Assembly: GCA_012518355.1 (NCBI GenBank)
Contig: JAAYSP010000070.1
Location: 1-55,215 of the forward strand
Direction: 5' to 3'
DNA: 55,215 nt
Source of the DNA: a candidate division WS1 bacterium
GTDB taxonomy: Bacteria; Armatimonadota; Zipacnadia; Zipacnadales; UBA11051
The translations under genes and the position numbers were made by a program. Under the pieces are notes generated by a model. The model saw nothing but the letters and a program-made list of their open reading frames with translations. It had not been told where the DNA came from and ran no database searches. How positions within the stretch are numbered: the first letter of the stretch is position 1; the number at the start of each line of letters is the position of its first letter. Below, one piece after another: positions 21,174-24,956 of this stretch.

Positions 21174-21529
21174 GCTCTTCGCCTCCAATGCCGGACTGAC
21201 TTGCAGAAGGATGACGCTTTTGCGCAGGTGCAAAGCGGCGTCACTCCCGTTGTGTCCGGGTAGAAGCGAGGCATGTTCAGTGCGGTGATGTTCCCGAGGC
21301 GGCTTTGTGGCTCCATCACCGCCCGCGTAGTCTCTGCTCACCTCTACCCACCCAGTGTTGTTGTTATCGGCGGCATGGAGGTGAAATTTAGGTTGGCGGG
21401 TAAATATGCTGTGTCATTGCATGGAACCATTTCGCACTGGCGGATTTGTGGCGGCCTGAACAGGCGGTTTGGAAGCCTGCCGGGCGTCTTGTTGCCTGTG
21501 AGTTGAGAATCGAGGGCTGTCTTAGAGTC
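21174..21529. other. Divergent intergenic region, regulator / glycosyltransferase
   Basis: 356 bp between the response regulator (minus) and the glycosyltransferase (plus). No RNA gene or terminator is apparent, and I see no strong sigma70 pair. Candidate OmpR-type direct repeats were not obvious by eye. Confidence 0.35.
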
Positions 21530-22705
21530 ATGACGTCAACACCGTTTAGAGTTGCCTATGTTGATCACGCCTGTGATATCGGCGGCGGTGCGCAGGAAGC
21601 GCTGCTGGATATCTTGCGATATGCTGACCGGCGAATTGTCCAGCCGGTGCTACTGCATGCTGAAGGCGCACAGTGGCTGCGAGATGTGGACCTGAACACG
21701 CTGGAGACGCGTGTCGTCTTCCCGGCTGCAGAGGCGTTTCCCGGTCAGAGTAGAGATGACCTGGGGAGCCTGTGGAGGAGGGCATCGGGAGCTGCTCAGA
21801 GCCTGCAACCCGTGAGGCGTATCCGTCGTGCGCTGGCAGAATGCAGGGTAGATATCGTACACACCAACACACTCAAATGCCACATCCTTGGCGGTCTGGC
21901 GGCACGGCTGGCCGGCAAACCGCTGATCTGGGATGTCCGCGATATCCTGGAAGCCGGGGCTGCGCGGTCGGTGCTGCTCGCAGTCGCTAAAAGAACGCGC
22001 CCTCATGTAGTGGCCATGTCCTCAGCGGTGGCCGACTCACTGGCATCGGCGCGTTGCGAGACTACTGTGGTGCTGGGGGCACGCCCGCTGGACAAGTACT
22101 CGCCGGACGCTCCCGACGATCAGTTGAGAGCAGCAATCGGCATCGAGCCGACGGACAAAGTGCTGTCTGTTATCGCCCGCCTGACGCCATGGAAAGGCCA
22201 CACAACACTGCTTGAAGCGTTCGCATCAGTGTTGCCACAGGAGCCTGCGGCACGACTGCTTGTCATCGGTGACACGGGCTTTTGGGAGAGCGACTATCGC
22301 GACACACTGGAGCGGTTGGCCGAGCAGTTGGGGTGTGCTGACGCTGTACGCTGGCTGGGCTTTCGGGAGGACATAACCGAACTGCTCGCTCTGACCGATG
22401 TGGTGGTGCTGCCTTCACACAACGAACCTTTCGGCCTGGTGCTTATCGAGGCTATGGCGGCAAATAAGCCGGTGATTGCGACCAACACCGCAGGGCCGCT
22501 GGAGATCGTCGCTTCCGGTGCTACCGGACTGCTGGTGGAGCACGGAGACGCCAGGCAGTTGGCTGATGCGATGCTGGAGCTGCTCGGCGACCCCGATAGG
22601 GCGCGAACTATGGGGCAAGCGGGGCGCAAACGCGCAGAGAAGCTGTTCGATATCAGCCGCCTGATGCAGCAGCTCTATGGCGTCTACGAAACGGTCACCT
22701 CATAA
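21530..22705 (+). CDS. Glycosyltransferase family 4
   Basis: A 391-residue GT-B-fold transferase. The N-terminal Rossmann domain carries DIGGGAQEALLDILRY and DIVHTNTLKCHILGGLAARL. The nucleotide-sugar-binding C-terminal domain has SVIARLTPWKGHTTLLEAFA, LVIGDTG, VRWLGFREDI and the EX7E motif HNEPFGLVLIEAM. It should transfer a sugar to a lipid, glycan or small acceptor; which one cannot be told. The ATG at 21530 gives MTSTPFRVAYVDH; GTG/TTG starts upstream lack domain content. Its last 88 codons (22441-22705) are duplicated downstream as a truncated copy. It converges on argS; no partner glycan genes are adjacent. Confidence 0.9.
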   Translation: MTSTPFRVAYVDHACDIGGGAQEALLDILRYADRRIVQPVLLHAEGAQWLRDVDLNTLETRVVFPAAEAFPGQSRDDLGSLWRRASGAAQSLQPVRRIRRALAECRVDIVHTNTLKCHILGGLAARLAGKPLIWDVRDILEAGAARSVLLAVAKRTRPHVVAMSSAVADSLASARCETTVVLGARPLDKYSPDAPDDQLRAAIGIEPTDKVLSVIARLTPWKGHTTLLEAFASVLPQEPAARLLVIGDTGFWESDYRDTLERLAEQLGCADAVRWLGFREDITELLALTDVVVLPSHNEPFGLVLIEAMAANKPVIATNTAGPLEIVASGATGLLVEHGDARQLADAMLELLGDPDRARTMGQAGRKRAEKLFDISRLMQQLYGVYETVTS

Positions 22706-22798
22706 GTTGCAGGCAAAACTTGCCTGTCTGACAGCCGGAGGCAGCCGCGATCTGCAGGCGCACCCACCGTGTCGCCCTGATACCACACACTCTCCGCC

Positions 22799-22916
22799 CT
22801 ACATGCTCTCTGGTGCATCAACGCCGAGAATGCCTAGGCAGTTGTGCCTAGGCAGTTGGCGAGCACCTGCCGGGTAGCCCTGACTAGCTCCATGCGCGCG
22901 GTGGATGTGGCCTGGT
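22799..22916 (-). pseudogene. argS 3' fragment (duplicate)
   Basis: Duplicated last part of argS, homologous to 23274-23377. It retains the original stop codon (22799-22801) and the stretch TSTARMELVRATRQVLANCL, but has no start or body. It contains a 14-bp tandem repeat that shifts the frame relative to the intact gene. Not expected to be functional. Confidence 0.9.
22831..22858. repeat. 14-bp direct repeat with palindromic core
   Basis: TGCCTAGGCAGTTG occurs twice head to tail; the core TGCCTAGGCA is a perfect 10-bp palindrome. In copy 2 of the large duplication the element is single and reads TGCCTAGACA. This looks like slippage in the pseudogene copy. Confidence 0.85.
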
Positions 22917-23181
22917 GCTTATCGAGGCTATGGCGGCAAGCAAGCCGGTGATCGCGACCAACACTGCAGGGCCGCTGGGGATCGTCGCTCCCGGTGCTAC
23001 CGGACTGCTGGTGGAGCACGGAGACGCCAGGCAGTTGGTTGATGCGATGCTGGAGCTGCTCGGCGACCCCGATAGGGCGCGAACTATGGGGCAGGCGGGG
23101 CGCAAACGTGCAGAGAAGCTGTTCGATATCAGCCGCCTGATGCAGCAGCTCTATGGCGTCTACGAAACGCTCACCTCATAG
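22917..23181 (+). pseudogene. Glycosyltransferase 3' fragment (duplicate)
   Basis: Duplicated last 88 codons of the GT4 gene, including part of the EX7E motif region and the C-terminal helices (EKLFDISRLMQQLYGVYE). It lacks the N-terminal domain and most of the nucleotide-sugar site. Against the intact copy I count about ten base changes in 265, roughly half altering the protein (Asn to Ser, Glu to Gly, Ser to Pro, Ala to Val, Val to Leu), as expected once selection is relaxed. No ribosome site precedes it. Confidence 0.9.
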
Positions 23182-23377
23182 TTGCAGGCAAAGCTTGCCT
23201 GTCTGACAGTCGGAGTCAGCCGGGGTCTGCAGGTGCACCCACCGTGTCGCCCTGATACCACACGCTCTCCGCTCTACATGCTCTCTGGTGCATCAACGCC
23301 GAGAATGCCTAGACAGTTGGCGAGCACCTGCCGGGTAGCCCTGACTAGCTCCATGCGTGCAGTGGATGTGGCCTGGT
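22917..23377. repeat. Tandem duplication, copy 2 (461 bp)
   Basis: Second copy of the unit at 22441-22916, 15 bp shorter: one base is missing just after the glycosyltransferase stop, and a 14-bp repeat present in copy 1 is single here. It carries an orphan 3' piece of the glycosyltransferase and the intact 3' end of the working argS gene. Confidence 0.93.
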
Positions 23378-24956
23378 CGCTGTCATCGAGCACCTGACAG
23401 TTGGTGTAGAACTGGTGGAATAGCTGGGTGAGTTCGCGTAGATAGGTGGTCAGTTGATGTGGCGCACGAGTCTGTGCGGCGCTCTCTACCTCATGCGGAT
23501 AGTCGGCAAGCTTGCTCATCAGTGCCATCTCTGAGGAGTGCACCAGCAGCGATAGGTCTGGCTCCGAGGCGAACGCAAACTCGCGGCTTTCGGCCTGACG
23601 GACGATGCTGCATATGCGGGCATGGGCATACTGGACATAGTACACAGGGTTTTCGTCAGACTGCTTTACAGCCAGGTCTAGATCGAAGTCCATGTGCGAG
23701 TCGTTGCTGCGCATGAGGAAGAAAAAGCGAGCTGCATCTTTGCCGACTTCCTCGATGAGATCGCGAACCGAGTATATCTGGCCTTTGCGTTTGGCCAGCT
23801 CGACTGTCTCCCCACCGCGCACCATGCGCACGTTCTGGTATACGATTATCTCCACTCGCTCCAGGTCGAAGCCACAGGCGGCCAGCACGGCCTGTAGGCG
23901 TGGGACGTATCCTGCATGGTCAGGGCCGAAGATGTAGACGACACGATCGAAGCCACGGGCGAATTTGTTCGCAGCATAGGCTGCATCTGCCGCGATGTAC
24001 GTGGGCCTGCCGTCGCTTCGCACCAGCACCCGATCCTTCTCATCCCCGAACTGTCCGGTGCGCAGCCACACCGCGCCATCTTGACGGTAAGCCATGTCTC
24101 TCTCGAGCAGCGAGGAGACTTCTCGGTCGATATCACCCTCATCGTACAGTGACTTTTCGGTGAACCAGACATCGAACTCTATGCCAAAATCGCGGCAGTC
24201 GGCCTCTGCCTGCTGGAGTATCTCATCTTCGAACAGGCGGAAGAAATGGTAGGCGGTCTGCTCATCGTCGGGCAGATCGGCGTACTGAGTGCCGACCTGT
24301 TCGGTCAGACGCTGACCCATCTCGGTCACATAGTCGCCCTGATAGCCATCTTCGGGAAGAGGCTGGTCCTGCCCGAGGGCCTGCAGATACCGAACCCTAA
24401 CGGAGCGGCCGAAATTGAGCGCCTGAGTGTTGTAGGGCCCATCGTTTACGTAGTATTCGCGTTCGACCTCGTAGCCGCTAGTCTCCAGAAGCGAGGCCAG
24501 GGCGTCACCGAACGGCGCTCCGCGAGCGTTTCCGATGTGTATGGGGCCGACAGGGTTTGCGCTTACGAACTCCACCTGCAGCTTCTGGCCCACACCACGG
24601 CTACTCTGCCCGAAACACTCCGTCTCCTCGAGGATTTGCGACAGTGTATCGGTAAACCAGTGATGTGACATGAAGAGGTTGATGAAGCCGGGCCCCGCTA
24701 CTTCTACTCTGTCTATGGGCAGGTCGCTGCTAGCTAGCCGATCGGCGATCGCCTGAGCCAGTTCACGGGGCTTCATGCCAGCTTGTTTGGCGGTCGTCAG
24801 AGCTATATTTGTGGCGAAATCGCCCATATCCCGACTGGGTGGGTGTGACAGCCCCTCTCCGGCGGTTGCAGCTAACTGCTTGCAGGTCTGCTGGTCCAGA
24901 TCGGTTGTCTGGTCAAGCGCCTGAGAGAGCGCGGCTGTGATGCGTGAGCGTATCAT
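23274..24956 (-). CDS. argS: Arginyl-tRNA synthetase
   Basis: A 560-residue class I aminoacyl-tRNA synthetase charging tRNA-Arg. The N-terminal Add1 domain (about 1-105, with HPPSRDMGDFATNIAL) precedes the Rossmann core bearing the HIGH-type motif PVGPIHIGNARGAPFGDAL. Later come YIFGPDHAGYVPRL and the region equivalent to KMSK, here ELAKRKGQIYSVRDL, degenerate as is common in ArgRS. A DALR anticodon-binding domain (about 440-560, with PVYYVQYAHARICSI at its beginning) ends the protein. The ATG start at 24954-24956 is supported by alignment of the first domain. Its last 104 bp lie in copy 2 of the tandem duplication, so the intact gene uses that copy. Confidence 0.95.
   Translation of the reverse strand: MIRSRITAALSQALDQTTDLDQQTCKQLAATAGEGLSHPPSRDMGDFATNIALTTAKQAGMKPRELAQAIADRLASSDLPIDRVEVAGPGFINLFMSHHWFTDTLSQILEETECFGQSSRGVGQKLQVEFVSANPVGPIHIGNARGAPFGDALASLLETSGYEVEREYYVNDGPYNTQALNFGRSVRVRYLQALGQDQPLPEDGYQGDYVTEMGQRLTEQVGTQYADLPDDEQTAYHFFRLFEDEILQQAEADCRDFGIEFDVWFTEKSLYDEGDIDREVSSLLERDMAYRQDGAVWLRTGQFGDEKDRVLVRSDGRPTYIAADAAYAANKFARGFDRVVYIFGPDHAGYVPRLQAVLAACGFDLERVEIIVYQNVRMVRGGETVELAKRKGQIYSVRDLIEEVGKDAARFFFLMRSNDSHMDFDLDLAVKQSDENPVYYVQYAHARICSIVRQAESREFAFASEPDLSLLVHSSEMALMSKLADYPHEVESAAQTRAPHQLTTYLRELTQLFHQFYTNCQVLDDSDQATSTARMELVRATRQVLANCLGILGVDAPESM

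Follow-up and report, generated by a model that had tools for sequence, protein, structure and literature searches.

Close direct repeats in bacterial genomes arise by duplication and then decay. In Salmonella LT2, spontaneous duplications are polymorphic in culture, and a junction match of at least 11 bp has been deduced for the true duplications (PMC3411829). Small tandem duplications of eukaryotes that form by staggered-break fill-in depend on Ku80 and CST/Pol alpha-primase (PMC8355091). The locus described here lies in a stretch of 55,215 nucleotides, analysed as a whole and referred to as the window, at the point where the convergent glycosyltransferase and argS genes meet (Table 1). We read it as a neutral short-homology tandem duplication in a lineage where such events form, or are retained, in unusual numbers, with a probability of about 0.85.

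Table 1. Features of the duplicated segment and of its two boundary genes (positions in the window).
Feature	Position	Strand	Basis
Intact GT4 glycosyltransferase gene, last 273 bp in copy 1	21446..22705	+	PF00534, E 7e-46; orthologues in all six family genomes
Left GGCCTGGT site, within the glycosyltransferase gene	22433..22440	+	sequence
Unit 1, 476 bp: glycosyltransferase 3' end, intergenic part, truncated argS end, terminal junction GGCCTGGT	22441..22916		alignment
7-bp perfect stem CAGGCAA/TTGCCTG just past the glycosyltransferase stop, unit 1; no T-run	22710..22726		sequence
Remnant of argS covering roughly its 34 final codons, with a frameshift caused by the 14-bp doubling	22799..22916	-	alignment
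TGCCTAGGCAGTTG twice in tandem, containing the 10-bp palindrome TGCCTAGGCA	22831..22858		TRF, 100% match
Duplication junction GGCCTGGT, with argS sequence on its left side and glycosyltransferase sequence on its right	22909..22916	+	sequence
Remnant of the glycosyltransferase 3' end with a frame that remains open (88-aa ORF starting at GTG 22915)	22909..23181	+	ORF list, comparison with relatives
Unit 2, 461 bp	22917..23377		alignment
Second CAGGCAA/TTGCCTG stem, loop alone changed	23185..23201		sequence
Intact argS (arginyl-tRNA synthetase), 3' end in unit 2	23274..24956	-	PF05746, PF03485, PF00750
Right GGCCTGGT site, within argS	23370..23377	+	sequence

The segments 22433-22916 and 22909-23377 are directly adjacent, head-to-tail copies of one segment with a start-to-start distance of 476, and they form the sole long direct repeat within the 55-kb window. 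The 8-bp sequence GGCCTGGT is present at three sites, ahead of unit 1, where the two units meet and where unit 2 ends, and thus at both ancestral end points as well as at the novel joint; the breakpoint can slide inside these 8 bp. Two random positions of this genome, taken at comparable distances, would share a match of at least 8 bp with P = 0.0004. The preliminary description had placed the two units and the three occurrences of GGCCTGGT correctly, and its proposal of a tandem duplication via 8-bp microhomology is still the best reading, given the junction structure and the single unit found in the congener G004. As in the short-homology duplications of Salmonella LT2, the copies are directly adjacent, both boundary genes are intact, and a short identical sequence marks the former end points and the new joint (PMC3411829). 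Unlike the LT2 cases, this duplication is an old one, with a match of 8 bp and copies that have diverged by 4.6% (PMC3411829).

The glycosyltransferase gene is completed by unit 1 and argS by unit 2, which leaves two spare ends fused through their truncated 5' sides. The layout reported before, in which each full gene keeps one unit and truncated remnants lie back to back, is indeed seen; it is general to tandem duplications, where the left gene keeps copy 1 and the right gene copy 2, so the intactness of both boundary genes needs no special explanation. A duplication by a mobile element does not fit, as the borders fall within two ordinary genes. No further matches of the duplicated sequence were found elsewhere in the genome, and a search of viral contigs for the junction sequence was negative.

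Comparison with relatives defines the ancestral state. In G004, a single unit lies at the convergent glycosyltransferase/argS junction, where 334 bp separate the two genes. In G003, the space is taken by a multi-copy IS-like element whose inverted ends come to within ~50 bp of the end of each gene, and no remnants were found between argS and the glycosyltransferase gene in the readable parts of the locus. The element ends lie at L125:2268-2294 and L124:5104-5130 and carry the motif GTCGGGCTNNNACTGTAGTTATGCAAA, which has 20 copies in G003, many of them at contig ends (reversed control, 0). Between the two genes of G002 are an N4/N6 methylase gene, an XhoI-family endonuclease gene and a ferredoxin-like ORF, and again no remnants were found in the readable parts. 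This restriction-modification insert occupies L122:1155-2872, and its endonuclease matches PF04555 (7.5e-81). The G002 glycosyltransferase copy on C582 is reported to have two stop codons in its matched stretch. The locus of G001 is broken by contig ends; in two other genera of the family, the glycosyltransferase and argS genes are on different contigs. Contigs of G001 and G002 both end near residues 329-331 of the glycosyltransferase; a shared breakpoint was considered and rejected, since assembly breakage at a conserved GT4 motif, or strain variation, is the more likely cause. Because G004 has a single unit and the G002 and G003 loci have no remnants, the duplication is derived in this lineage. 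The gene pair has an age of at least that of the genus, and among the readable species the duplication is specific to this one. The gap between the two genes took a different insertion in three of the four readable species.

The two copies differ at 21 of 461 aligned sites (4.6%), with 18 of the 21 substitutions being transitions, and by two indels, one of 1 bp (22704) and one of 14 bp (22831-22844), in agreement with the divergence of about 5% and the two indels reported initially. The 14-bp indel corresponds to a second, identical TGCCTAGGCAGTTG placed directly beside the first in unit 1, and the argS remnant would end in LGTTA-stop in place of the conserved C-terminus LGILGVDAPESM. Three synonymous and no replacement changes separate the intact argS end from this remnant. 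Five replacement and five synonymous changes are found in the glycosyltransferase part, so that the decay signal at this single locus is modest. The glycosyltransferase remnant has E353G, at a position with E or D in all relatives, and A373V, at a position with A in all relatives; V417L is more likely derived in the remnant, and two further changes cannot be polarised. Divergence at this locus is fastest in the intergenic part (8 of ~93 sites). These changes show in part that the two back-to-back remnants are evolving with little constraint. The pattern, as read from the sequence, is that of two working genes plus two spare ends, with small numbers at this one locus.

By itself, the locus is an ordinary, textbook example; the genome-wide load is the interesting part, and a company of dozens of such duplications had gone unseen in the first reading. 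The burden was estimated from sampled stretches, namely the window and 60 further contigs of the same genome (0.72 Mb, eight masked contigs left out), with close direct repeats defined as at least 100 bp long, 80% identical and spaced by up to 600 bp. The sample holds 29 such repeats, with units of 140-476 bp (median 313). All but one (28/29) are not contained in an ORF of at least 150 aa and sit over gene ends or between genes; the one inside an ORF compares with ~65% expected by random placement (P = 3e-12). The comparison set, 0.71 Mb in all, came from six relatives: four congeners and two further members of the family. It gave seven close direct repeats, all inside ORFs, and therefore none outside ORFs versus the 28 found here (P = 8e-9). 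Compared with close direct repeats in bacteria in general, those of this genome stand out by their density (~39 per Mb), by a narrow unit length and by the fact that the sampled relatives have none outside genes. A limited literature search found no similar genome-wide pattern in bacteria, which does not prove its absence.

The narrow unit length was also seen in an independent scan of spacings from 15 to 1500 bp, which gave a single hump at 140-480 bp, nothing at 60-140 bp and almost nothing above 500 bp; the same scan in the relatives showed no 140-480 bp hump. The ~28 repeats besides that of the window have units of 140-450 bp and are nearly all at gene ends or in intergenic DNA; examples are L143:14918-15789, L169:9379-10273, L198:10650-11444, L195:7895-8525 and L189:12505-13629. 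Identities between copies range continuously from ~80% to 97% across the genome. Among exact tandems the matching sequence at the junction is 0-16 bp long, and clear microhomology is not universal; no shared breakpoint motif was apparent by eye among the sharp junctions. In about ten duplications, 14-236 bp of unduplicated DNA separates the copies, which could be explained by a later deletion in one copy or by another mechanism.

The alternative that survives best, and that we still consider improbable, is that two strain alleles of one region were assembled in series. Such haplotypic false duplication has been described for diploid genomes (PMC2864568). The present assembly is fragmented into 243 contigs and most likely comes from a metagenome, the units, at 140-476 bp, are similar in length to a sequencing insert, and strain alleles differ most between genes. 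Two contig ends of G002 (L123 and L122) overlap by 578 bp at 93% identity, which is raw material for an error of this kind. The same overlap is a sign of strain mixture in the G002 assembly. It should be mentioned that the divergence of 5% had been taken to rule out an assembly error. That argument is weaker than it seems, since two strain alleles could be laid out in series in a metagenome-assembled genome, yet an artefact remains unlikely on other grounds.

These grounds are the decay of the remnants and the structure of the assembly. Two working alleles would look far more constrained than the remnants do. In a pooled test of 18 other duplications and the window, each intact gene end was compared with its own remnant. 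Strong purifying selection is expected for alleles of working genes; instead, the pooled pN/pS is 0.38-0.40 (bootstrap 0.29-0.50), and divergence is 7.2% in coding versus 8.1% in noncoding sequence. Stop codons occur in three remnants of the pooled set and 1- to 2-bp indels in many. When replacement changes were polarised at the present locus and three others, 11 fell in remnants and 7 in intact copies, a weak difference in the expected direction. At the window itself, the frameshift and the lost conserved residues, together with the pooled pN/pS of ~0.4, argue against both copies being working alleles under protein-level constraint. In two pairs of contigs within the sample, exactly 127 bases are common to the contig ends, suggesting an assembly graph with k near 127, in which an 8-bp match cannot join paths. 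The unmasked sampled contigs have no Ns, and arrays of three copies exist (L140 and L189). Considering the remnant decay and the exact 127-bp overlaps without gap Ns, the artefact is unlikely, and the duplications of this genome are very probably real.

A real duplication could also have had copies that differed from birth, with sister-strain DNA joined by homology on one side and through microhomology on the other (homology-facilitated illegitimate recombination). This origin would account for the 4.6% divergence without requiring that an unstable tandem repeat persisted for long. Under it, however, both copies should be conserved, working alleles, contrary to the frameshift and the lost conserved residues, and the continuous range of identities from ~80% to 97% across the genome is what steady birth and decay would give. 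We therefore regard it as very improbable.

Least probable of all is that the duplication was kept for a function, such as a doubled bidirectional terminator between the convergent genes: the stem is perfect in both units, and duplications occur at 7 of 69 convergent (10%), 15 of 301 co-directional (5%) and 2 of 64 divergent (3%) gene pairs, but the stem has no T-run, hairpins are no denser in intergenic regions with duplications than in those without (0.48 versus 0.56 per kb), the intergenic part diverges fastest, and the positions fit simple tolerance rather than function. Hairpins as a cause of the duplications were likewise rejected for lack of enrichment. A GC-rich hairpin (AGGCAGGCTTTCCAGCCTGT) similar to the CAGGCAA/TTGCCTG stem lies between the two copies at L177:1165-1288.

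The preferred reading, a neutral short-homology tandem duplication, implies the following course. The ancestor had a single convergent glycosyltransferase/argS junction, the state still seen in G004. Eight base pairs are too short for RecA recombination. The junction suggests that RecA-independent misalignment or end-joining between two GGCCTGGT sites 476 bp apart produced one duplication. With no promoter involved and a cost close to nil, it could then have drifted to fixation. Both remnants, back to back, have subsequently decayed under little constraint, as is seen in part. In this lineage the process has been repeated many times, and the sampling shows that units of ~140-480 bp persist almost exclusively where they cover gene ends or intergenic DNA. 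In all likelihood the duplication has no function of its own.

The cause of the burden may lie in how such duplications form or are removed. The genome has recA and two MutS-domain genes, and a search of it for a Ku domain found none. Loss of recA or of MutS-type repair, or a gain of Ku-type joining, was therefore rejected as an explanation. Several other loci resemble the eukaryotic fill-in duplications in having two copies, a restricted unit length and microhomology that is short or absent (PMC8355091). With no Ku domain found and 8 bp of homology at the present locus, this likeness is an analogy only (PMC8355091). Simple slippage does not predict a narrow unit length. Either formation could have a length scale, for example through staggered-break fill-in by analogy with eukaryotes, or homologous recombination could remove longer units while shorter ones are rarely made.

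It is possible, and we suggest it tentatively, that this lineage, whose congeners are filed under Armatimonadota / Candidatus Zipacnadia, is subject to a tandem-duplicator process whose characteristic unit is ~310 bp (140-480) and which would have left ~120 duplications when extrapolated from the 28 in 0.72 Mb, either via a changed repair or replication step or through lost pathways of repeat deletion. The genome-wide load raises the question of which repair difference from its congeners produces or preserves the duplications. Being of many ages and filtered by selection, so that they persist only where they break no gene, these tandem duplications of ~300 bp offer a natural record of the birth, decay and size of duplications.
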